Under the pieces are notes generated by a model, which had not been told where the DNA came from, ran no database searches, and was given only the letters and a program-made list of their open reading frames with translations. A DNA stretch of 29,751 bases from a virus, in the IMG/VR virus record IMGVR_UViG_3300036832_000444, positions 1 to 29,751 of that record. One strand, written 5' to 3'. This document shows positions 509 through 29,751 of the stretch, piece by piece (positions within the stretch are counted from its first letter, which is position 1; every line of letters starts with the position of its first letter). Both the position numbers and the translations under genes were made by a program.

Positions 509-535
509 CTAGCTGTGTCCAGCGAAGGAGGATCA

Positions 536-1189
536 GTGAACGAGATCGAGCGGTTGCTGGAGTGTGGCGCGGTCCTCCTGGAGCCCGCCGGGCCGATGCT
601 CCCAACCGAATACGGCAAGCGGTGGTTGGATGAGACGTGGACCGAGCTTGAGCGCAACCGTGGCGTGCTGCTCGACGTAGCGAAGCTCGCCGAATGCGAA
701 GCCGAGATGTGGGATGAAATCGACCGGATCCTCCGCGCCGAGGGCGTCCCGACCGCGATCAGTTCCGGCGTCTCGCAGTACGGGATGCAGCACCTGATCG
801 ACCATCTGAACGGCAAGACCTCGTTCACGATGCCAGCCGTCTGCTCGGTTGCGCTCGCGACCACAGCGCCAACCTCGACCAGCACCGGGGCGCTAGGAGC
901 CAACGAAGCGGCGTACACCGGCTACGGGCGGCAGACGATTGCGGCGGCGGGCTGGAACGCGGCGACGGCAGCGACACCGTCCGTTGGCACGAACGCGGCG
1001 ACGATCACGTTCGGCAACTGCACGGCGGGCACCTCGACGTTGCTGGGGTTCATCACCGCCGACTCCGCCACGGTCAACGCGGGCAACGCGGTCTGGTACG
1101 GGACGCTGACGAGCACCGTCATCTCAACCACGCAGACGCCGCCGACGATTGCCGCCGGGGCGCTGAGCGTTAGTGTTACGGGGACCTGA
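536..1189 (+). CDS. tail-fibre-type structural protein with an extra N-terminal domain
   Basis: The protein has 217 residues from GTG 536, chosen because AAGGAGG (525-531) sits five bases upstream. A GTG at 515 is in frame and would be nearly leaderless from the TAGGCT promoter, so it remains possible. The C-terminal ~130 residues follow the plan of a small, widespread phage tail-fibre family: an opening helix (QHLIDHLNGK), a VALATTAPTS strand, a GYGRQTIAAAGWNAAT core, then two strands ending in AAGALSVSVTGT. The N-terminal ~90 residues (WDEIDRILRAE) are helical, charged and not part of that family. They look like a fused adaptor domain of unknown role. It heads a translationally coupled block and shares one base with the next gene. 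Confidence 0.7.
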   Translation: MNEIERLLECGAVLLEPAGPMLPTEYGKRWLDETWTELERNRGVLLDVAKLAECEAEMWDEIDRILRAEGVPTAISSGVSQYGMQHLIDHLNGKTSFTMPAVCSVALATTAPTSTSTGALGANEAAYTGYGRQTIAAAGWNAATAATPSVGTNAATITFGNCTAGTSTLLGFITADSATVNAGNAVWYGTLTSTVISTTQTPPTIAAGALSVSVTGT

Positions 1190-1614
1190 TGGGCGAGATC
1201 TACACGCATCCAGATACCGGCGAGGAGATCGAAATCCCCGACGGCGCGGAGATCACGTACGTCGGCAAGGGCAAAGACGCCGAGATCGCCGGGTGGTCCA
1301 ACCCGCCCGATACGCCGGAGGGCTCGCTCGCACCCGACCAGGTGGAGGACTACGAACCGAGCTTCGACCGGGCGGGCATCGAACGTCGCGTGCTGGGGTA
1401 CGTCACCGATGACGATCACGTCGGTCGCGGGCCGCGCAACACCCCAGCGCGACTGGCGCAGGAGTTGGACGAAGATCCGTTCTCGCCGTTCGTCGCCGAG
1501 GAGGACGATGTCGCGACTCACCTCGAAGCGCTCGTGGAAGCGGGCCTGGTCGAGGAGCGCGACGACGGTACCTACGCGGTGACAGACGCCGGGCGCGTCG
1601 AACTGGCGAACTAA
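1189..1614 (+). CDS. protein with a C-terminal winged-helix-like domain
   Basis: The product has 141 residues. The start ATG at 1189 overlaps the previous stop as TGATG, which implies coupled translation. The first ~30 residues look like a small beta structure (GEIYTHPDTGEEIEIPDGAE). Residues ~90-141 carry a helix-turn-helix and wing pattern: DDVATHLEALVEAGLVEER, then DGTYAVTDAGRVEL, as in MarR/PadR-type or phage-hinge winged helices. A DNA-binding regulator inside a tail-fibre operon is odd. The fold may instead serve protein-protein contact, so function is not assigned. It is very acidic overall. Confidence 0.6.
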   Translation: MGEIYTHPDTGEEIEIPDGAEITYVGKGKDAEIAGWSNPPDTPEGSLAPDQVEDYEPSFDRAGIERRVLGYVTDDDHVGRGPRNTPARLAQELDEDPFSPFVAEEDDVATHLEALVEAGLVEERDDGTYAVTDAGRVELAN

Positions 1615-1627
1615 ACAGGGGCGGGCC

Positions 1628-2254
1628 GTGAGCCTGCTGGCAACACAGCAGGACTTCGAGCCCGCTAACCCCACCGAGGGTGCGACTGCGCTCTACTACC
1701 AGCCGTACGACGGCTCGGGCTACGACATCGACGCCCCGGACTTTCAGGAGCGCTGCGACTGGCTGGTCGCGACCTACCCGCCGACCAACCAGAAGCTCGC
1801 GATCTGGGGCTGCGGGTTCGGGGCGCTAGTCAACCTGACCGTCGTCGCCGGGTACGACGCCTACGGCTTCGATGGCAGTTCGTACGCGATCTCGCGCGGC
1901 AAAGCGCTGCTGCCGACCATCGCTTCGCGCCTGTTCGTCCGCAACGCGCTCGTGTCCAAGGACGTGACAGCCTCGCGTACCGACGCCGGGTTGAGGGGCC
2001 AAGCGAAGTTCGCGCTCCTGGTCACCGAGTCAATGGTCAGCACGATGTCCGACGCGGAGATCAGCGCGATGCTGCCGCTGTTGCGTGCCTCGTCAAGCGC
2101 GGCGCAGGAGGTCCACATGGAAGTGCCTGAGGACCCAGGGGCAACTGCTGCTGGCATGAACGACTCGCGACTCAACTGGAAGTCCAGCGCGGACTGGAAG
2201 GCGCTGTTGTCGCCCGACGTTGTCTGGGACGCGGTCAACTACCAGGTCGTCTGA
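1628..2254 (+). CDS. class I SAM-dependent methyltransferase-like protein
   Basis: The protein has 208 residues from GTG 1628, with a weak GGGGCGG upstream. Residues ~58-68 (LAIWGCGFGAL) match methyltransferase motif I, a glycine-rich loop after a hydrophobic strand. Residues ~78-88 (AYGFDGSSYAI) match motif II, with the acidic residue at the end of strand 2 that binds the SAM ribose. A later FALLVTESM strand and a QEVHMEVPED segment fit strands 4-5. Substrate cannot be read: glycan, small molecule or protein are all possible, and no DNA-methylase DPPY/NPPY motif is seen. Its stop overlaps the start of the giant fibre gene by one base, so it may modify that fibre or a cell-surface target. Confidence 0.65.
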   Translation: MSLLATQQDFEPANPTEGATALYYQPYDGSGYDIDAPDFQERCDWLVATYPPTNQKLAIWGCGFGALVNLTVVAGYDAYGFDGSSYAISRGKALLPTIASRLFVRNALVSKDVTASRTDAGLRGQAKFALLVTESMVSTMSDAEISAMLPLLRASSSAAQEVHMEVPEDPGATAAGMNDSRLNWKSSADWKALLSPDVVWDAVNYQVV

Positions 2255-5200
2255 TGACCAAACAGCTTATTCGCGGTTCGCCGTACCAGTCGATCCCGTA
2301 CTACTACTCCAACCGTTGCGGGCCGTGGGTTGACAGCAACGGCAACGCCTGGATCGCCGCCTGGTCTGCTGGGTCTGCGTATAGCTGCGATGTCTGGACG
2401 TACGAGAGCACCGACGGTGGTAACACCTGGGGTCGCGTCGGCGTTGGCAGCAACAGCAACTACTTTGGCAGTCCGCTCGCTCTCGACTGCGCGTTCGATC
2501 CGGTCAACAACGTCATCTACTGCTTGACCTATGCCACTTCGCCGACACCCATCTGCCAGATTTGGACGTGGACCATCGGAACAGGCGTGTGGGCACGCTT
2601 TGACACCGGCACGTCACCGACTTTTACGGGACCAGTTGGCGGCGGAAGCACCTACAGGTACGCCTCCCTAAACCGCCTTTCGGACGGATCGTTCGTCGCC
2701 ATCTTCCAGGGTCCCGGAGCAACGAACATGGGCACGACCTACGACCAGGTTTACTACTGTCCCGTTTCGGCGGCAGGCGTGTGGGGCACGCCCGTCGTGC
2801 TCTACGGCCTGTCAGGTAGTTCGATCCACGTCGATCTAATTGGAGCAACTGTCGGCGCAAGCAACCGCATTCACGTCCTGATGAGCAACGGCGTAGCGGG
2901 TACCACGATCTACCACCGTTCGCTCAGCGGCGCGACGCTTGACACCGCCGCGACCGTCGGAACCCGCACGACGAGCGGGCCGCTACCAGGCATTGCCTAC
3001 GACGCCACGCTCGCCAAGGTGATCGCCACCGGTATCGGCACCAACTTTGTGATGCGGGCCAGTTCAATCGCCAACCCGACGTGGACGGCTGACGCAAACA
3101 GTCCCGGTTCGCCAACAAACGTCGGTGCAGCGAGCTTCATCTACGACAGCACCGGCAATACGCAGTACATCTTCTTCGGGACCGCCACCGGGCTGATGAT
3201 GAACACCGCAACGGGAACGGGCACGACGTGGGGCACGGCGGCGCAGTTCGAGACAGACACGCCGATGGGCGGCATATCCCAAGTGGGCAAAGTTGCAGCA
3301 GGGATCGGCGTCTTCTACCAGACAAGCACACCGAACTCCTACACCGACGTTTACTCGCTCGGGCCGGTCGCCGTAGCGATCACCGCCTCGGCGAACGCTG
3401 CGGCTGGAGCAACCGCCCCGGTTGTCGTGCCCGTCTCCCTGGCAGCGATGGCGGGCGTAGCGTCCCAGGCCCAGGCGACGCTAACCGCACCATCTCCGCA
3501 ATACCTCTCCTCGCCAGGGGTGACGGTTGGAGCAAAGACCTACGACCAGGTGGTCCTAGCCGATAACCCGCGCGGCTACTGGCCCCTGAACGACCCGTCG
3601 CTCCCCAGCGTTTCGGCGAGCGCTCCAGCCGGACTGATTGGCTGGTACGCAGCCGACTCGCTTCCCTTGAGCGACGGCGCGGCTGTTTCGTCCTGGCCGG
3701 ACGGGTCTTCTGCCGCTATCGGCCTAGTAACCGGAACGGGCGGTACGGCCCCGACGTTCAAAGCAAACCAGGTCAACTACCACCCTGCCGTTCTGTTCAA
3801 CGGCACGAGTGACTTTCTACAGGGCACCAACCCCGCGCTGACCAAACAGCCGCTTACCGTATTCGCGGTCTTTTCGAGCACAAGCGGCAATCGACTTTGG
3901 GGCGCTCAGGGCATACGCCTCATGCAGGGCGGCGTCACCGTGATCTACGCGGGTACCGGATTCAGTGGCCCCACGGTATCGGCAGGCTTCCACTACGGCA
4001 CCTTCATCGTCAACGGAGCTAGCTCCCAAGTTCGCATCGACGGGGCGGTTGCAGCTTCGGGCGATGCAGGTGCGAACACGCCTTCGACCACCTTCGCAAT
4101 CGGAAGCGAGGGCGATAACGCTCAATGGTGGGGCGGCGATATTGCTGAAGTGCTCATGTATAACGGCGTGCTTTCGCCGACCGACATTGCGACAGTCGAG
4201 GCGTACCTGAACAGCAAATACTTCACAGCCAGATCGGTGCAGATAGCCGACGCCTCGGGCAGAGGAAACACCGGGATGGTGGACCCGACGGTCGGAGCCG
4301 TCACGTTCGGGGCTCCTGGGATCGGTGACGGCAGTACAGCAGTCGCCTTCCGTGCCAATAAGGGCGGCGCTTGGGCGCTTCGCTTCCAGGACTTCCAATC
4401 GAACTGGCCGACCGACAACAATCAGGTCTTCGGTCCGGGTGGCGCGAACGTCACCACCATCTCGATGGAGTATTGGGCCAAGATCACCCCGAACGGCTCG
4501 TACTACTACCCGTATCTCTCGACCGTAGAGAGCTACGGCGGTGAAGCGTACCGCAGCCGTGTGGCAGGATCGAGCGGCCTGGACTTCAGCATTGTCGGTA
4601 ACACCCAGGATGCAGCCACACCAAACGGCGTGGACAACCGATGGCACCATGTTGTCGGCACGTTCGACGGTGGCGCTGCGAACACGCCGTCATGCCTCTA
4701 CCTGGACGGAGTGCTCGTCGCAACCGCATCCGGAGGTTTCACCGCACCCGAAACCCAGCAGATCTACCGTGTTCACGCGCTGTACGACGGCAGCCCGCCG
4801 CTGCTCGTGACTTCCTTCGCGAAATACGCGCTCTACGACCGTGTGCTGACCCCGGCCCAGGTGCGCACGCACTTCGCTGCCGGAAGCCAGTACAACGCGG
4901 CGGTTGTGGCCGACGCCCCGTCGTTGTTCTGGCCGATGGACGAGTCCGCATCAGTAACGAGCTTCCGCGACCTGATGGGTGGCAGCGTCGCAATCGTCTC
5001 ACAAGGAAGCCCAGGTCGCGTAACGGGGATCGGCGACGGCGCAACGGCACCGGAGTTCAGTGGTACTTATGGCATTGCGGTCTTCTCGTCGGCGATTACC
5101 GCACCATTCTCTATCGAGGCTTGGTTCAACCCCGACGTGGTGCCCCAGGCCAACACTGGCGCTCAGACCCTTAACACGCGCTATCCGTCGGAGAACGGGT

Positions 5201-8200
5201 TTGACCTTCAAATCGGCAGCGTCAATGCAACAACGGCCCACGCAGACATCGGCTCCGGCACGGGTTGGTTGAGCACGTCTGCTGACCTGTCGGGAATCTC
5301 ACCGCCGGTTGTGGCCGGTGGGTGGCATCACGTTATCTACGCGATTGGACCGACTGGCTGGACTGGGTATGTGGATGGAGTTCAACGCGGTAGCGGCACG
5401 TTGAGCGGCACGGCGCTGCTGGTGGACGGCAACCACAACCTCGTTGTTGCGAGCAACGCCACCAACACCGACTGGGCGGGCTCGGTCGCGAAGATCGCTG
5501 TCTACCCGTTCGTTCTCAGCGCGGCCCAGGCTCAGGCTCACTTCCAGTCCCTGACAGCACCGCCGCCCCAGCCCGCTGTCGGTGCTCAGGCTGCGACCGC
5601 TGCGACTGCGACGGTCGCGATCCCGCCGCCGGTTGCGTTCCTCGCCCCGTCCGCGCAGGCCACGACGGCAGCGAGCGTCGCGGTCACGTACCCGGCGAAG
5701 CTGACTCCCACCGCCCAGGCAACGACGGCGGGGCAACTGGTCGCTACCGCCACCGCACGGCTTGCCCCGAGCGCTGCGGCGGTCACCCAGGCGCAGGTGG
5801 TCGTGACAAGCGCCCCGTCGCTGACACCGGTCGCGCAGACAGTGGGTCAAGCAACGTCCCTCGTGACGGCGGCAAGCCGCCTGACTGCAACTGCCGCGAG
5901 CGCCAGCCAGGCGACCGCTGTGGTCACCGTCGCCACGCCGATGGCGATTGCGGCGAGCGCTGGTGCCGCATCTGTCGCAACCGCTGCAATCAACGCGCCC
6001 GCTGCGCTGGCCCCTAGTGCCATCGCGGCGACCCAAGCTGTTGGCTCGGTCATCCCTGCCGTGACGCTGTCCCCGGCCGCTGGTGCCGCTACGCAAGCGC
6101 TGGTCACGCTCACCGCTGTCACTCAACTCGCGGCGAGCGTCGGGGTGGCGGCGCAGGCGACCGTAGCGATCTCGATTCCCCAGGTCGCCCAACAGCTTGT
6201 CCCGGCTGCGCAGGCGACGAGTGCCGCGTCGATCCTGGTCACGGCCACGACGCTGCTGACCGTAACCGCTGGCGCGGCGTTCGCCGCGACCGGGGTGGCA
6301 GTCGCAGCCACGCCGCTAAGCCCGACAGCCGGAGCGATCACCCAGGCGACCGCGAAGCTCACCGCCGCTGTGAGCCTCGTCGCGATCCCCAGGGTCGTGA
6401 CCGCCACTGACAACTTCAACGGGGCCGACGGAGCCATCGGTGGTACCTGGACCACCGGCTTCGACTCGCCAATGGTGATCGCCTCCCAGCAGGCGAAGGG
6501 CTCAGTCGGCGGAACGTGGACCGAGAGCCTCCAATCCGGCACGTACGGCAACGACCAGTGGTCCGAGGTCCAGATCACGGGCCAGCCGATCCCGGCTGAC
6601 TGGATCGGCGCGAGCGTCCGCACCCAGAACAACGGCCAGGATCTCTACCGGTTCATCTACTTCAACAACGCCGGGAGCTACGAGCTACGGCTCGGCAAGC
6701 GGATCTCGGGCACCGCCACGACGTTGGTGACGCTGTCGTTGGGCACCACTCCGCTGCCGCTCGGTACCACGGTCGCGATCAGCGTCCAGGGCTCGACGCT
6801 GCTGCTGTGGGTCAACGGGGCGCTCGCGAACACGACAACCGACACCAGCATCCTCGGCGGCGGCACTCCCGGCATCATCGCCTTTGGGACCACCGCCAGC
6901 GTTGACAATTGGCGCGGCGGCGAGATCACGATGGCGCGCGCTCAGGCTGTCGTGCTGATCACCAGTGGCGGAATGGCGCTCGCTCCTGCCGCGACAGCGC
7001 AGGGCCAGGCGCAGGCCCAGGCTACGGCCACCACCTGGCTGGCACCCGTCGCCGCCGCGACCAGCCAGGCGACCGTTGCGCTCAGCGTCAGCACCGCCGT
7101 GGCGCTCTCCGCGACCGCTGCCACCGCAGCAGCCGCGACGGTGATACCCGCAGTGTCGCTGACTCCTAAAGCCGGGGTCGCGACTCTCGCGACAGCCGCT
7201 ATCAGCGCACCGTCCCTCCTTGCGCTCGGAGCAGCGACCAGCAGCCAGGCGCTCGCTGCCATAGGAGTCGGTGGCGTTCCGCTCGCGGCTACGGCCACCG
7301 CCGCCACCCAGGCCGTCGTGTCGCTCACTGCCGCCCCGACGCTGACCGCAACCGCTCAGGCGACCACCCAGGCGCAGGGTGCTCTGACAGCCGCTCCGGC
7401 GCTCTCTGCCGCCAGCGCGGCCGTGACGCAGGCAACCGGTCAACTCCAAGCCCCGGCCCGTCTGAGCGTCGCAGCGAGTGCCACAGCGCAGGCCACCGCA
7501 ACTGTCGTCGTTGTCGTTCAGGTCGCACCGGCCGCTCAGACGACCGCCGCCGCGACGCTGGTGCTCACCACAGGCACGGTCACGCCCGCGCTGCTAACGC
7601 CGTACGCCCAGGCGGCCACCACTGCGACAACGGCCCTGAGAGCCGCCACAGGGCTCACAGCCGCCGCCGGCGCTGCCGGGCAGGCACAGGCATCCCTTGG
7701 CACCGGAAGCGCTCTGGTGGTCGTAGGAGCCGCCGCAGCGGCTGCTGTCGCGACGGTGGTCGTGCCTGTCGCGCTGACGCTCACCGCCGCCGCGATCAGC
7801 CAGACCTACGCACTGGTCGTCAGCCAGGGCACGTACCTGGCGCTGATCGCGAACGCAAGCTCGGCTGCGACCGCGACCGCGACCGTCACCGTCGCCCTGA
7901 CACCAGACCCTGTGGTCGCGCAGACCAGCGCCCAGGCGGAGGTGCTGACCGCCCCGCAGATCCAGCCCACGGCCCAGACGAGCACCCAGGCGAGCATGGT
8001 CGTCGGATACACGCCGTGGATCGCGCCCGCCGCCGCCGCCACCGCCGCCGCCGGCATCGCGGTTGGGTACACGCCGTGGCTGGCTGTCAGCGCCGCCAGC
8101 GCAACCCAGGCGCTCGCGGTTGTGTTCGCGCCGCACGCGGCGCTGCTGCTGTTGCCGCTGTACGCCGACGTGTCCTCTAACCGCACGGTCGTGGACGTGC

Positions 8201-8319
8201 AGGCTCCGACCGTCTACGCCGACGTTGTCTCGAACCGCACAGCCGTGGACACGCTGGACCCGATGACGTACGCCGTGGCGTTCTCGAACCGCAGCGACGC
8301 GGTGCTTGTCGAAAGCTAA
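2254..8319 (+). CDS. giant multidomain tail fibre: sialidase-like, LamG and 20-residue repeats
   Basis: The product has 2021 residues. Residues 1-370 are rich in Trp and Gly and carry one perfect Asp-box (STDGGNTW, 52-59), which suggests a beta-propeller like sialidases. Catalytic Arg and Glu residues could not be placed, so it may bind rather than cut glycans. Two repeat units follow near 375-415. A LamG-like domain starts at ~430 (VLADNPRGYWPLND), is interrupted at ~460-657 by a second concanavalin-like domain, and resumes (IADASGRGNTG) to ~875. A further LamG domain covers ~880-1098. Residues 1109-1381 and ~1563-1966 are tandem ~20-residue Ala/Thr/Gln-rich repeats, split by another jelly-roll (1384-1557, starting DNFNGADG). 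Three 18-residue repeats close the protein. It is most likely the main host-recognition fibre. Confidence 0.75.
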   Translation: MTKQLIRGSPYQSIPYYYSNRCGPWVDSNGNAWIAAWSAGSAYSCDVWTYESTDGGNTWGRVGVGSNSNYFGSPLALDCAFDPVNNVIYCLTYATSPTPICQIWTWTIGTGVWARFDTGTSPTFTGPVGGGSTYRYASLNRLSDGSFVAIFQGPGATNMGTTYDQVYYCPVSAAGVWGTPVVLYGLSGSSIHVDLIGATVGASNRIHVLMSNGVAGTTIYHRSLSGATLDTAATVGTRTTSGPLPGIAYDATLAKVIATGIGTNFVMRASSIANPTWTADANSPGSPTNVGAASFIYDSTGNTQYIFFGTATGLMMNTATGTGTTWGTAAQFETDTPMGGISQVGKVAAGIGVFYQTSTPNSYTDVYSLGPVAVAITASANAAAGATAPVVVPVSLAAMAGVASQAQATLTAPSPQYLSSPGVTVGAKTYDQVVLADNPRGYWPLNDPSLPSVSASAPAGLIGWYAADSLPLSDGAAVSSWPDGSSAAIGLVTGTGGTAPTFKANQVNYHPAVLFNGTSDFLQGTNPALTKQPLTVFAVFSSTSGNRLWGAQGIRLMQGGVTVIYAGTGFSGPTVSAGFHYGTFIVNGASSQVRIDGAVAASGDAGANTPSTTFAIGSEGDNAQWWGGDIAEVLMYNGVLSPTDIATVEAYLNSKYFTARSVQIADASGRGNTGMVDPTVGAVTFGAPGIGDGSTAVAFRANKGGAWALRFQDFQSNWPTDNNQVFGPGGANVTTISMEYWAKITPNGSYYYPYLSTVESYGGEAYRSRVAGSSGLDFSIVGNTQDAATPNGVDNRWHHVVGTFDGGAANTPSCLYLDGVLVATASGGFTAPETQQIYRVHALYDGSPPLLVTSFAKYALYDRVLTPAQVRTHFAAGSQYNAAVVADAPSLFWPMDESASVTSFRDLMGGSVAIVSQGSPGRVTGIGDGATAPEFSGTYGIAVFSSAITAPFSIEAWFNPDVVPQANTGAQTLNTRYPSENGFDLQIGSVNATTAHADIGSGTGWLSTSADLSGISPPVVAGGWHHVIYAIGPTGWTGYVDGVQRGSGTLSGTALLVDGNHNLVVASNATNTDWAGSVAKIAVYPFVLSAAQAQAHFQSLTAPPPQPAVGAQAATAATATVAIPPPVAFLAPSAQATTAASVAVTYPAKLTPTAQATTAGQLVATATARLAPSAAAVTQAQVVVTSAPSLTPVAQTVGQATSLVTAASRLTATAASASQATAVVTVATPMAIAASAGAASVATAAINAPAALAPSAIAATQAVGSVIPAVTLSPAAGAATQALVTLTAVTQLAASVGVAAQATVAISIPQVAQQLVPAAQATSAASILVTATTLLTVTAGAAFAATGVAVAATPLSPTAGAITQATAKLTAAVSLVAIPRVVTATDNFNGADGAIGGTWTTGFDSPMVIASQQAKGSVGGTWTESLQSGTYGNDQWSEVQITGQPIPADWIGASVRTQNNGQDLYRFIYFNNAGSYELRLGKRISGTATTLVTLSLGTTPLPLGTTVAISVQGSTLLLWVNGALANTTTDTSILGGGTPGIIAFGTTASVDNWRGGEITMARAQAVVLITSGGMALAPAATAQGQAQAQATATTWLAPVAAATSQATVALSVSTAVALSATAATAAAATVIPAVSLTPKAGVATLATAAISAPSLLALGAATSSQALAAIGVGGVPLAATATAATQAVVSLTAAPTLTATAQATTQAQGALTAAPALSAASAAVTQATGQLQAPARLSVAASATAQATATVVVVVQVAPAAQTTAAATLVLTTGTVTPALLTPYAQAATTATTALRAATGLTAAAGAAGQAQASLGTGSALVVVGAAAAAAVATVVVPVALTLTAAAISQTYALVVSQGTYLALIANASSAATATATVTVALTPDPVVAQTSAQAEVLTAPQIQPTAQTSTQASMVVGYTPWIAPAAAATAAAGIAVGYTPWLAVSAASATQALAVVFAPHAALLLLPLYADVSSNRTVVDVQAPTVYADVVSNRTAVDTLDPMTYAVAFSNRSDAVLVES
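5578..6396 (+). repeat. tandem 60-bp (20-residue) repeats, block 1
   Basis: About 13 units share a pattern of the type LxPxAxAxTQAxVxLTAxPx. Units start exactly 60 bases apart at 5641, 5701, 5761, 5821, 5881 and 5941, then drift by a few codons. DNA identity between units is modest, so the repeat is kept at protein level. Confidence 0.8.
6940..8157 (+). repeat. tandem ~60-bp (20-residue) repeats, block 2
   Basis: About 19 more units of the same family start near 6979. Typical units begin LTATAQATTQAQ or LAATATAATQAV. Two successive units near the end share a GYTPW segment encoded by a near-identical 15-base stretch at 8005-8019 and 8065-8079, exactly 60 bases apart. Confidence 0.8.
8161..8316 (+). 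repeat. three 54-bp repeats at the fibre C-terminus
   Basis: Units begin at 8161, 8215 and 8269 and encode YADVSSNRT, YADVVSNRT and YAVAFSNRS, each in an 18-residue period. They differ from the 20-residue family and form the extreme end of the fibre. Confidence 0.75.
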
Positions 8320-8356: not shown

Positions 8357-8746
8357 GTGTCCTCTTTGCTGACCGGTGCGTGGACGATCAAGCGCGGTGC
8401 TACTTCGCCGCCGTACCGGGCGACGCTGCGCCAGGCGAACAAGACGCCCATCGACCTGAGCGGCGCTGACCACGCGAACTTCGTGATGCGGCTGCGCAAC
8501 GAAACCGTTCCGACCGTGGACGCTCAGGCGAGCATCATCCAGTCGGGCGATGCGCTGACCGGCACCGACGTTGGCGTGGTCGAGTACGACTGGGTGCTGG
8601 GCGACACCGACACGGCGGGGGTCTACGACGTGGAGTTCGCGCTCTACGACATCAACGGCGAGGTGTACGCCCGCATTCCGAACGACAGCTACCTGGAGGT
8701 TCAGATCCTGGGGAACCTCTCGTCCGTCGGACCCACCGGAACCTAG
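8357..8746 (+). CDS. BppU-like Ig-fold baseplate/fibre accessory protein
   Basis: The product has 129 residues from GTG 8357, which has no ribosome binding site and appears leaderless. The sequence runs WTIKRGATSPPYRATL, then DLSGADHANFVMR, a SGDALTG stretch, then GVVEYDWVLGDTDTAGVYDVEFAL and GEVYARIPND. This is the strand order of the N-terminal Ig-like domain of BppU-type baseplate upper proteins, which anchor receptor-binding proteins in Gram-positive phages. It is encoded alone, directly after the giant fibre, so it may attach that fibre to the baseplate. The fold call is by pattern only. Confidence 0.65.
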   Translation: MSSLLTGAWTIKRGATSPPYRATLRQANKTPIDLSGADHANFVMRLRNETVPTVDAQASIIQSGDALTGTDVGVVEYDWVLGDTDTAGVYDVEFALYDINGEVYARIPNDSYLEVQILGNLSSVGPTGT

Positions 8747-12120: not shown

Positions 12121-13179
12121 ATGAACGGCAACCCATACGGTGTGTTCGGCAGGCCGATCCGCCTGCTGGAGGCGTACAAGGAGTGGCGCGACGAACGGAT
12201 GCTGGAGGAGGCGGACTCGAAAGCCGACTTCCCGAGCTTCCTGTACGGCCCGGTGCGCCAGTCGATGTGGACGGGCTACAGCCGTGCGCAGGCGCAGTAC
12301 CAGCGTTACACCCGGCAGGAGAACGCGCCCGACTTCCGCGAGCGGCGGCTGCGGGGTCTGAACGGCCTGCTGGGAATCGGGTACGTGGGCGACCACGGTT
12401 CCTACCCAGGGCTGCGCCGGACCGAGCGTGCACCGGCCACGCTGTCGGTGGACACGTACGGCGGCGTCTACCAGATCACCCGCCAGGCGATCATCAACGA
12501 TGACTCGAACGAGCTACTGAACCGCAACCCGGCGGACATGGGCTACGCCGCCGGCGTGTTCATCCTCCAGACCGTCATCGCGATGATCGAGAACCCCGGC
12601 AACGCGCCGGACGGCAACCCGTTCTACTCGACGGGCCGTGGCAACCAGGTCGTGACCCCGCTGGCGGAGGACGCGCTCGCGAACGCGGTCGCGTTCATGG
12701 AGTCCCAGCAGGATGACGACGGCAACCAGATCGTCGTGACCCCAGCGGTGCTGGTCGTCAAGAACGCGGCGATGCAGATGATCGCTCAGCGCATCCTCAA
12801 CTCGACCCAGACCGGCACGAACATCCAGTACACGGGTGGCACTGCCGGAGTGGGCGCGGCCCTGTTCGACAAGGGCACGATCAACCCGCTGGCAGGCATC
12901 CTTCCGGCCGACGGCGTGATCCGCGATCCGTGGTTCCACGACTCCAACGACTGGTATCTGTTCGCTGACCCGAACGACGTGCCAGCGTTCGCCGTCGGGT
13001 TCCTGAATGGTCAGGCGGAGCCGCAGGTGATGTTGCGCGATCCGATGGTCAGAATGGCGCTCGGCGCGGGCACAGACCCGTATCAGTTCGAGTTGGACTC
13101 GGTGGACTTCAAGGTTCGGTGCGACTACGGGGTCGGCGTGATCGACCCGCGCGGGGCGTATCGCGCAATCGTTCCGTAG
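12121..13179 (+). CDS. major capsid protein (HK97 fold)
   Basis: The protein has 352 residues, with AGGAG (12111-12115) five bases before ATG 12121. The segment SVDTYGGVYQITRQAIINDD is the E-loop/spine region typical of HK97-fold phage capsid proteins. NPADMGYAAGVFI and a late PDPMVRMALG-type stretch (here RDPMVRMALGAGTDPYQFEL) with VRCDYGVGVIDPRGAYRAI form the usual P-domain ending. An alternative would be a Mu gpT-like head subunit, which has the same fold. It ends the head operon and is followed by a long hairpin. Confidence 0.9.
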   Translation: MNGNPYGVFGRPIRLLEAYKEWRDERMLEEADSKADFPSFLYGPVRQSMWTGYSRAQAQYQRYTRQENAPDFRERRLRGLNGLLGIGYVGDHGSYPGLRRTERAPATLSVDTYGGVYQITRQAIINDDSNELLNRNPADMGYAAGVFILQTVIAMIENPGNAPDGNPFYSTGRGNQVVTPLAEDALANAVAFMESQQDDDGNQIVVTPAVLVVKNAAMQMIAQRILNSTQTGTNIQYTGGTAGVGAALFDKGTINPLAGILPADGVIRDPWFHDSNDWYLFADPNDVPAFAVGFLNGQAEPQVMLRDPMVRMALGAGTDPYQFELDSVDFKVRCDYGVGVIDPRGAYRAIVP

Positions 13180-16234: not shown

Positions 16235-17713
16235 ATGCCGGGTTCCTTCTCCAAAGACGCCAGGCCCGTTCGCCCAGGCGCGTACTTCGACTGGGAGGCT
16301 CAGCCAACCACCACGATCCAGCCGAACATCGGCTCGGTCGTGGCACTGCCCATCGTTCACGACTGGGGGCCAAGCGAGCAGATCGTGTCGTGCTCCTCGC
16401 TCGGTGACTTCCAGGCCAAGTTCGGCCCATCGACCGACACCCCTGGCTACGCGGCGGCGCAGCAGTGCTTCCGTGGCGAGGGCGTGAACGGCCGAGGCGG
16501 CGCAGGTGGGATTCTCGCCTACCGGATGTCTGGGTCCACCGCCGCGAAAGGCACCGTCCTCCTGAAGAACACAGCAGCGGCGACCGCGATCACTCTGACC
16601 GCGCTGTACGAGGGCTCGTACTCCACCGAGAACCTGGGTGTGCGTGTGCGCGTCGGTACCGCTCCGTCAACAACGGACGTAGTGATCACGCTGCTCGGCA
16701 CGATCATCGAGGTTCACACAGCGGCGACGGCCGACACCAATGCGATGGTCGCGCAGATCAACTCGACCTCTAACTGGGTCAGTGCCGCAGTTGGGGCGAC
16801 CGGTACGGCGCTGGACACGTCGAACCCGAACACGGTTCTGCCGTTCGTTGGTGGTGACGACGGCGCGACGCTGCTGCCCGCCGACTGGACGAACATGCTC
16901 GCAGCACTGTCTGCCGCACGCTTCTCGCTGTTCGCCCCGTTCGATCTGACGGACCCCTCGATTCTCACGTCCGTGCAGGTGTGGGTCCAGCAACTGAACT
17001 CCGTCGGGAAGCGGTTCATGGCCGTTGTCGGTGGGGCAGCGGCTGACACGGCGACAACCGCTACCGCACGCTCAACCTCGATGTCGGGGCTGCCGGGCAA
17101 CGGCGGCGGGGAGAACATTGTCAACGTGGGCGTCGGGACGTTGATAGACGACGAGCTAGGGACGCTGTCCACCTCGCAGCTAGCTCCGCGTATCGCCGGG
17201 ATCCTCGCGGCCCGTGGCGAGTCGATGAGCCTCACGTTCGCCCGCATGGCGGGCTGCACCGCCGGCGTGCTGCCGTCCGACTCCGACGTGACCCTGTGCT
17301 TCAACGCCGGGGTGGTCGTGTTTGGGATGGACTCCAACCCCGATGCCCCGATTCGCGTCGAGAAGGGTTTGACGACCTACGTTGGCGGCGATGCCTCCAA
17401 GCCGTACCTGATCTACCGCAACCCGAAGTTCGTGCGCACGATGCACGGCATCGAGTTGGACATCACCGACTGGGCAACCGCTACGGCCATCGGCCTGTTG
17501 CAGGTCAACGACCAAACCAGAGCGCTGGTCGTTGGCTACGGCCACCAAGTGATGGACCAGCGTGCCGGGCTCGGAGTGATCCAGAACGGCTTCACCGTCG
17601 GTGTTGACCCGGTCCCGCCGCCGTCCGATGAGGACGAGTTCGTCGCGGTGGTGTACGGGATCGCGTTCGGCCGCTCGGTCGAGCAGATCTTCAACACCGT
17701 CTACATCTCCTAA
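16235..17713 (+). CDS. contractile tail sheath protein
   Basis: The product has 492 residues, with GAGGAGGAG (16221-16229) just upstream of ATG 16235. It begins RPVRPGAYFDWEA, like phage sheath proteins. It has the typical C-terminal signature NAGVVVFGMDSN, then RVEKGLTTYV, YLIYRNPKFVRTMHGIELDI and a final segment EFVAVVYGIAFGRSVEQIF. The middle (IVSCSSLGDFQAKFG, GGDDGATLLPADW) fits the insertion domains of the family. This gene is the main evidence that the virion has a contractile tail. The length is normal for the family. Confidence 0.9.
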   Translation: MPGSFSKDARPVRPGAYFDWEAQPTTTIQPNIGSVVALPIVHDWGPSEQIVSCSSLGDFQAKFGPSTDTPGYAAAQQCFRGEGVNGRGGAGGILAYRMSGSTAAKGTVLLKNTAAATAITLTALYEGSYSTENLGVRVRVGTAPSTTDVVITLLGTIIEVHTAATADTNAMVAQINSTSNWVSAAVGATGTALDTSNPNTVLPFVGGDDGATLLPADWTNMLAALSAARFSLFAPFDLTDPSILTSVQVWVQQLNSVGKRFMAVVGGAAADTATTATARSTSMSGLPGNGGGENIVNVGVGTLIDDELGTLSTSQLAPRIAGILAARGESMSLTFARMAGCTAGVLPSDSDVTLCFNAGVVVFGMDSNPDAPIRVEKGLTTYVGGDASKPYLIYRNPKFVRTMHGIELDITDWATATAIGLLQVNDQTRALVVGYGHQVMDQRAGLGVIQNGFTVGVDPVPPPSDEDEFVAVVYGIAFGRSVEQIFNTVYIS

Positions 17714-27287: not shown

Positions 27288-27652
27288 TGCTCGCACCCGA
27301 ACCGCTTGTGCTCGACGGACGCCAGTGCCTGCTCGACGCCCAGGCACTGTACGCGGGCTCGGCAATCCCGCGCGGGTTCTACACCGTCGGCTGGTACGCG
27401 ACCGCGATCTCCGACGAGCGCGGCAGCTTCGGGATCGTTGACCCGATGATGGGGCTCGCGGACTGCGTCGGCGAGATCCTCGAAGTTGACTACCGCCCGC
27501 TCGGATCGCAGGCCACGTCTAGCGTGCGGGTGTACGTGATCGGCAGCGTCCAAAACTTCGGGACGGACCTTGGGATCACTCGTCGCTGCTACATGGAGTT
27601 GGAGAAGCTCTCCATCGAGCCGCTCACCGCGAACGTGGGGATCGTCACATGA
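27287..27652 (+). CDS. small baseplate protein of unknown fold
   Basis: The product has 121 residues. ATG 27287 overlaps the hub stop as TGATG and its own stop overlaps the next ATG as ATGA. It is beta-rich: [29 protein letters not shown] and [20 protein letters not shown]. Its place between hub and spike/fibre genes in a coupled operon supports a baseplate role, but no family is recognised. Confidence 0.65.
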
Positions 27653-29751
27653 GCGGACGGCTGGCTCTCCAAGACGCGCTGAAGGCGCACAGCGAACGGG
27701 TCACACGCCGCCACAAGAGCGTTCGGCGCGGGAACGTCACGACCCTGAACCCGCTGACCGTCGAGCTTCAAGACCACGACATCCCGCTGATCGAGGACGA
27801 GGACTTCGTGCTGTCGCAGTGGGCCGAGGTGTACCGCGCGAGCACCAAGCTCCTGGTCGGCGACGTGGTGCTGATGCACCTGGAGGACAACGACTGGACG
27901 CTGACGGATGTCATCTCCGACACCGTGCCGGGCAAGATCGGCGGAGACGGCGGAGGCAGCGGTAGCAGCAGCGCAGCGCCCCTGGTGATCTCCGCACGGG
28001 CGTACCGCGCCGCCGCGTTCACGCTCCCCGCCAGCACCTGGACGAAGGTGCCGCTCGACACTGTCAACAGGGATCCGAACGGGTGCTTCAACCTCACGAA
28101 CGGGCGTTTCACGGCCCCTGTCACAGGCGTCTACGACGTGACCGCCGTGGTGCAGCTAACGAGCCTGTCAGCGACCGGCACGTACACGACGATGGGCGCG
28201 GCGATCTACAAGAACGGCGCTCAGTTCTCGCAGGCGGCAGACGTGGTGGCAGTACAGAGCTACTTCAGCGTCGAGCACCTCGACCAGATGCAGTTGACGG
28301 CCGGTGACTACCTGGAACTGTGGGCCTACAACCAGCAGGGCACGGCCGTCTCTGCCACGACAGGGAACACGTACCTCGCGGTCACGCTGTATACCGCCGG
28401 CACCGGCCCAGCCGGACCGCAGGGCATCGCTGGCCCGACCGGAACGACGGGGGCGACCGGGGCGGTTGGCGCGACAGGACCGCCCGGTCCTCAGGGCGCA
28501 GCCTCGACCGTTCCAGGACCGACCGGACCGCAAGGCGCAGTTGGGCTAACGGGCGCGACCGGCGCAACCGGTCCGGTAGGACCGACCGGTGCAGCTTCGA
28601 CTGTTCCGGGACCAACAGGGCCAACGGGCGCGACCGGCTCGACAGGTCCAATGGGGCCGATGGGCACCGTCTACGACACGGACCAGATCGGCACGATCAA
28701 AGCGTGGTCCGGCGCGGCGATTCCGACGAACTGGATGCTCGCCGACGGCAGCCCGCTCAGCCGCACCAACTACGCCGCCCTGTACGCCGCGCTCGGCAGC
28801 GCAAGTTCCCCGTGGGGGCAGGGTGACGGGTCCACCACCTTCAACATTCCCGACCTCCGCTCCCGAATGATCGTCGGGTCCGGCGCAGGGCCGGGGCTGA
28901 CGAACCGCGCGTTGGCTGCCAGGGGCGGCGAGGAAACTCACATCTTGACGATAGGCGAGATGTGCACGCACGACCACGGTGCCGTAACCGGTGGCGGGAC
29001 GACTGGCGGCGGGACGACCGGCGGGGGCACCACTGGGTTGGTGTCCAACGACCACACGCACACGTTCTCGGGCACGACCGCAACTGAGAACCAGGGGTTC
29101 AACTTCAACTACTCGGGTACAACGAGCGACGTGTCCCAGTGGAATGGCGTCCAGGGCTACAACGTCTGGTCGTGCACAGGCGGCGCGAACTTCGTGGCGA
29201 TCACCTGGGGAGCCACGCTGGTCGGTGGCGACAACCGCAAGTACAACGACTTTGCGCATCAGCACACGTACTCCGGGACCACCGCGACGCAGAACCAGAA
29301 CCACAACCACAACTACTCCGGCACCACCTCGGGGATCAGCGCCAACCACAGCCACTCCGTTCCTGGGCTCAGCGTCCCTGGGCTCTCCATTCCTGGGCTC
29401 TCGATCTCCGCTCAGGGCGGCGGGGGGGCTCACAACAACATGCCTCCGTTCGTCGCCGTCGCGATGATCGTGAAGGTCACCGGGGTCCAGGTCGATTCAG
29501 GCGGGGCAATCCAAGGAGCGACCGGCCAGCGCGGGGCGATCTGGTACATCTACAACGGGGCTGGGACGCCCCCTCCGAACACGTTCGTCGGCGAGCTTGA
29601 CGGCGATTGGGCGATTCGCAAGTCGGACGGTGAGAACTTCCAGCGCGTCAGTGGTGCGTGGGTTGACCAGGGGTTCACCAACCGCTCGACGGCGACAACG
29701 ACTTCCGCAAGGGCGTATCGCACTGCGGCTCTCACGTTGACATCGCAAGCG
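27649..29751 (+). CDS. baseplate spike/tail fibre: OB, C1q-like, collagen and collar (3' truncated)
   Basis: ATG 27649, in an ATGA overlap, opens a frame that stays open to the window edge, giving 701 residues. Residues ~20-90 ([32 protein letters not shown]) look like a baseplate OB-fold. Residues ~115-250 ([46 protein letters not shown]) look like a C1q/TNF-type trimer domain. Residues 253-338 are collagen-like GXY triplets. From ~341 a phage tail-collar domain follows ([32 protein letters not shown]) with five HxH motifs and the collar ending [15 protein letters not shown]. At 686 a second C1q-like domain starts ([12 protein letters not shown]). It is a trimeric adsorption fibre on the baseplate tip. 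Confidence 0.85.
28405..28662 (+). repeat. collagen-like GXY triplet region
   Basis: About 29 consecutive triplets encode Gly-X-Y with Pro, Thr and Ala dominant. The block [12 protein letters not shown] occurs twice, 93 bases apart (28498 and 28591), and breaks the strict GXY register both times. It forms a triple-helical shaft between the C1q-like and collar domains. Confidence 0.8.

Follow-up and report, generated by a model that had tools for sequence, protein, structure and literature searches.

A 20-residue repeat array linked to a Gp80 gene in a contractile-tailed phage: candidate rope of a chain-like fibre

Fibre I of the podophage GP4 is reportedly a chain of gp80 subunits joined by an elongated rope protein. 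A 15-fold fibre adaptor ring is expected in chain fibres of this type. The locus analyzed here resembles GP4 fibre I (Gp80, PF23140; PDB 8JOU; Zheng et al. 2023, doi 10.1016/j.jmb.2023.168258) in possessing a Gp80 gene that matches the PDB chain and a linked repeat gene. It differs from podophage GP4 in that the phage is contractile-tailed and the array protein is about 2000 aa long with lectin insertions. Another bead chain is carried by the Anabaena myophage A-1(L), in whose neck fibre (gp82-gp81-gp80) trimers of gp81 were modelled head to tail (PMC10966104). This fibre is comparable to the proposed one in being a bead chain on a myophage, with a distal carbohydrate-binding module and a pilus-like fold in the anchor, but it was modelled without a repeat rope (PMC10966104), and the name gp80 is there simply a gene number.

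The repeats can also be compared with curli/FapC-type and other beta-solenoid repeats, which have units of about 20 residues with two strands; unlike these, the array shows neither a conserved Gln/Gly/Asn ladder nor a significant fold match. Collagen-like phage fibres are found in the same genome region of two related phages (L014 and L016), but they have a GXY repeat and another fold.

The window analyzed is a 29,751-nucleotide fragment of a phage (IMG/VR virus contig IMGVR_UViG_3300036832_000444), in which PHROGs identified sheath, tape measure, capsid and fibre genes. The tail sheath gene (16235-17713, + strand; phrog_279, E 7e-51) indicates a contractile-tailed phage, and the array protein is of the fibre type, as a sequence-only reading of this DNA had proposed. 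The window ends within another tail fibre gene (27649-29751), in which collagen-like GXY runs occur.

Organization of the array protein

The array gene (2254-8319, + strand) encodes a protein of 2021 aa comprising an N-terminal region, lectin-like domains, two blocks of 20-aa repeats and C-terminal 9-aa repeats. The N-terminal 375 aa (2254-3378) gave no family match; an Asp-box-like motif, STDGGNTW, was seen there by eye, perhaps belonging to a propeller. The start of the gene is overlapped by an ORF (1628-2254) that has no more than weak methyltransferase-like matches (E 0.006-0.04). The N-terminal region is followed by two 20-aa units (3379-3498, +; profile scores 19.0 and 27.7 bits), after which comes the first lectin-like (LamG/ConA) region, at aa 461-656 (3634-4221, +), recognized by tblastn to phage structural proteins and by Laminin_G_3 stretches, four of which were detected by Pfam in the whole protein. 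A Laminin_G_3 domain with its best stretch at aa 949-1092 is located at 4969-5550 (+). Repeat block A (5572-6375, +) contains 13 units and block B (6979-8139, +) contains 18 units and one weak unit (7897-7959), both delineated by autocorrelation and a 20-column profile. They are separated by a lectin-like (LamG) domain (6376-6978, +; Laminin_G_3 E 0.0015), which when scored alone reached 19.1 bits, below the curated cut-off of 27.6 bits. This domain is of the jelly-roll class and agrees with the earlier description of an array split by a jelly-roll domain. No GXY runs of at least 8 triplets are present in the array ORF.

The protein ends with 9-aa repeats (YADVSSNRT VVDVQAPTV YADVVSNRT ...) at 8161-8316 (+), detected by TRF, which reported a period of 54 at 8160-8293, and by lag-9 autocorrelation. 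Lag 9 was also the best lag in C-terminal tails of array proteins (pooled z 16.3, 15 tails). The repeats of the window are of the xADVxSNRT type, and their period is common with the R-x-Y/F-x-V tails of unrelated array proteins. The sequence-only reading contained neither these repeats nor the units at 3379-3498 nor the Gp80 gene described below.

Downstream of the array gene is a small gene (8357-8746, +), 77% identical in L018, for which no family match was found; its assignment to a BppU N-terminal domain was dropped, as Pfam gave no support. In L014 (4075-5283) a relative of this gene is seemingly fused, as judged by eye, to a collagen-like repeat, which suggests a stalk-type exchange.

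An iterative 20-column profile found 31 clear 20-residue units in the two blocks (13 + 18) plus one weak unit, which bears out the estimate of about 32 copies made from the letters. The summed profile score was 537, whereas 200 shuffles of matched composition gave 19 +/- 9; since the profile was trained on these very units, the comparison is in part circular. Without a profile, identity at lag 20 was 0.337 in block A (z 7.8) and 0.278 in block B (z 6.4), the expectation being 0.17. BLOSUM scoring at lag 20 gave z 9.0 in block A and 7.2 in block B; the portal, capsid and sheath proteins of the phage, taken as controls, stayed at z <1. At the DNA level lag-60 identity was 0.47 and 0.42 in blocks A and B against 0.30 expected. 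The near-exact 60-base register claimed previously was confirmed: 22 of 29 within-block junctions are gapless, 1-4 residues are inserted at six, and the weak unit occupies the remaining one. Between-unit identity is 0.49 at the first codon position (0.36 expected) and 0.55 at the second (0.41 expected), but barely raised at the third (0.36, 0.33 expected); the units use a mixture of synonymous codons. The excess at the first two positions and the mixed synonymous codons indicate that the repeats are old and under selection at the protein level, as had been supposed.

The unit consensus in the window group is L-x-P-x-A-x-A-x-T-Q-A-x-A-x-V/L-x-A-P-x-x. Unit positions 1, 3, 5, 7 and 11, 13, 15, 17 are mostly small or hydrophobic (apolar), with positions 1, 3, 5, 11 and 15 more than 90% apolar, and position 9 is polar. 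About 90% of the array consists of A, T, V, S, Q, L and P, and charged residues make up 1.4%. Length variation is located between units; the turn is constant in length and the loop variable.

Spread of the repeat and its linkage with Gp80

Searches with the major capsid protein (gene at 12121-13179, +) identified about 40 related contigs. Twelve of them are large, although these may be incomplete, and have capsid proteins 74-92% identical to that of the window; with the window they make up the 13 phages compared here. Four of the 12 carry an array in the corresponding position, preceding the capsid gene; two profiles count about 29, 37-41, 32-38 and 4 units in them, and the inserted domains differ. 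The earlier proposal had been made to depend on conservation of the repeats in relatives, and they are indeed conserved, in five related soil myophages; the suggested comparison of copy number gave a range from 4 to about 40 units. L019 encodes a large second lectin protein (1387-5832) with lone 20-aa units scattered between its domains and what looks by eye like a hydrolase insert.

Profile searches with the repeat, which the sequence-only reading had also proposed, revealed arrays in phages and prophages but no family match in Pfam, PHROGs, NCBIfam or PDB profiles; PDB matches, mostly to Ala-rich designed proteins, designed helical repeats among them, were rejected as composition. Scanning viral contigs with patterns, and keeping loci with four or more units in phase, yielded at least about 25 independent array genes in unrelated uncultured phages. 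Their common consensus is L-A-A-S-A-x-A-x-A-x-A-T-A-x-L-T-x-x-x-x, and the period of 20 is kept in phages of widely differing GC content. In bacterial genomes a 45-bit DNA pattern occurred at 120 or more loci; among the matches listed just one array passed the filter (L201, a prophage), so most of the other loci are due to chance. Whole-genome profile search detected arrays in 4 of 399 Burkholderiales genomes, in none of 297 genomes from the class of a Streptomyces and in none of 385 from the class of a Methylosinus. In all, arrays occur in a few Burkholderiales and Flavobacterium prophages, and those examined in bacterial genomes adjoin tape-measure, portal, terminase or integrase genes. Whole-protein search, a one-unit DNA pattern and tblastn of arrays returned no homologues; low-complexity masking probably hides the repeats from tblastn. 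No prophage relative emerged from bacterial genomes searched with the capsid protein. Overall, the repeat is real, constrained and widespread in phages, yet uncatalogued, and the array protein is probably a large version, bearing lectin domains, of a fibre type already known.

Upstream of the array gene, at 515-1189 (+), lies the proposed bead gene, with a Gp80 domain (PF23140, GP4 fibre I protein) at about 770-1171 that scored 66.7 bits in Pfam against a cut-off of 27. A family profile seeded with the window Gp80 matched PDB 8JOU chain a (E 3.7e-22) and, weakly, CsuA/B pilins (E 0.006-0.02). Both Gp80 and the array are present in five of the 13 phages and both are absent from the other eight (Fisher p = 0.0008); among the 12 large relatives Gp80 occurs in exactly the four with an array. 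The array and Gp80 thus behave as one cassette. Some of the eight phages lacking both have collagen-like genes in the same genome region. More widely, Gp80 is located upstream on the same strand at 22 of 37 array loci, prophages and a few near-duplicates included; where more than 2 kb of sequence precedes the array, it is there at 18 of 19 loci. This linkage reflects joint function and is not proof of contact.

In most of the cultured phages tested the gene that follows Gp80 has a best period of 20: BcepIL02 (z 7.5), OH (6.3), PBC5 (4.4), phiM5 (3.7), BcepMigl (3.2), CRP-4 (2.9) and Itty13 (2.8). A weak period of 20 was seen beside Gp80 in Lietuvens and PVJ1. The C-terminal tails of the cultured-phage proteins have a period of 9 or 10, and gp55 and gp56 of BcepIL02 are both annotated as virion-associated. 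BcepIL02 (gp55/gp56), Itty13, PBC5, phiM5 and OH share with the window the arrangement of Gp80 followed by a period-20 protein with a C-terminal 9-10-aa repeat. Unlike in the window, these proteins are 180-285 aa long with roughly 5-11 units counted by eye, the units contain more Gly and charged residues, and no lectin domains were seen. The similarity between the window and BcepIL02 units is confined to period and alternation, and an equal period is not proof of homology. The presumed fibre adaptor of the cultured phages had no sequence match among the window genes.

At three further loci (L267, L331 and L286) the gene immediately after Gp80 encodes a short protein whose 20-aa repeats are in a different register and whose C terminus carries a Trp-rich 10-aa repeat. 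In Caulobacter phage CcrSC, a CbK-like giant phage, the Gp80 homologue (gp123; L385:6989-7384) lies near capsid genes and its neighbouring gene has no period of 20. A head filament is known in the CbK-like group, and the CcrSC homologue is possibly linked to it.

Predicted structure and alternative folds of the array

In two AlphaFold2 runs each unit was modelled with strands at about residues 1-7 and 10-16, in perfect 20-residue register. The two short strands per unit suggested by the sequence-only reading were thus recovered in both runs, but at low confidence: pLDDT was 59.9 and 61.8 and pTM 0.50, short of a confident single-chain stack of coils, and pLDDT hardly rose when the alignment was enlarged from 20 to 55 rows. 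Foldseek against PDB and viral models gave no match at E <= 0.001, solenoids included; the weak matches were mostly to solenoids. Low-confidence models of this kind are compatible with a solenoid but no proof of one, and would also be expected of strands that need partners. The long beta-solenoid of the earlier reading did not emerge with confidence. In the form considered here, the array alone would fold as a long beta-solenoid or stacked beta-arch stalk, with 20 residues and two strands per coil, spacing the lectin domains, and Gp80 would be a separate part of the same fibre. The strand register, the odd-position alternation around polar position 9, the confinement of length changes to sites between units and the nature of the weak Foldseek matches are all consistent with such a stalk. 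Against these stand the model confidence, the absence of a significant match and the strict co-occurrence with Gp80, which a self-sufficient stalk leaves unexplained, and we regard this explanation as unlikely. The linked Gp80 gene points instead to individual bead subunits threaded on a rope, not to a stalk standing by itself.

In another alternative, three array chains would form a trimeric fibrous fold, a triple beta-spiral or a related one, as in adenovirus or reovirus fibres. Two strands per unit, a turn of constant length with a variable loop and alternating apolar residues would suit such a fold, and an obligate trimer would give low-confidence monomer models. The defining feature of the triple beta-spiral is a conserved Gly/Pro in the turn of each unit, but unit positions 8-10 of the array are mostly A/T/S/Q, which makes the trimeric fold improbable. 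A flexible, largely disordered Ala/Thr/Pro linker between the lectin domains would account for the low complexity, the scarcity of charged residues and the modest model confidence. It is very improbable, however, in view of a fixed 20-residue register over 30 units with strongly apolar positions and of a period that stays unchanged among unrelated phages whose GC contents differ greatly.

Proposed bead-chain fibre

The repeats are inherited together with the Gp80 bead gene and for this reason most likely form the rope that strings the beads. Linkage with Gp80, the shared architecture of 20- and 9-residue repeats and the Gp80 profile match together support a chain-like fibre. We consider that the chance is somewhat better than even that an adsorption fibre of the GP4 fibre I type, built as a chain, has the array protein as its backbone ('rope') and Gp80 as its beads. 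The beads would be copies of the small Gp80-domain protein, which the 20-residue units would bind and space. The lectin-like domains, N-terminal and within the array, may contact host-surface sugars, and the 9-residue repeats conserved at the C terminus probably serve as an anchor or cap. Such a fibre would be attached at the neck or upper tail and may have a role in host attachment. A search of PDB by sequence found no rope chain, so no structure considered here shows a rope-bead contact.

The alternation of residues and the weak match to CsuA/B pilins suggested a more specific version. Each unit might dock on a single bead subunit with one beta-strand or a pair of strands, in the manner of pilus donor strands, and the number of units would set the length of the chain. 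That the array is a multi-site donor-strand rope, each 20-residue unit completing one pilin-like Gp80 subunit, with repeat number as a ruler for bead number and fibre length and lectin cassettes spliced between beads, is put forward tentatively and is itself rather unlikely.

The bead-chain reading provides a sequence signature and a partner gene, Gp80, for phage proteins now annotated as 'hypothetical' or 'head protein'. It ties hundreds of Gp80-bearing phage records (405 by tblastn with one query) to a candidate bead-chain fibre, and predicts that repeat number would scale with bead number and fibre length. Related phages swap the fibre cassette in and out, and some of those without it have collagen-like fibre genes in that genome region.
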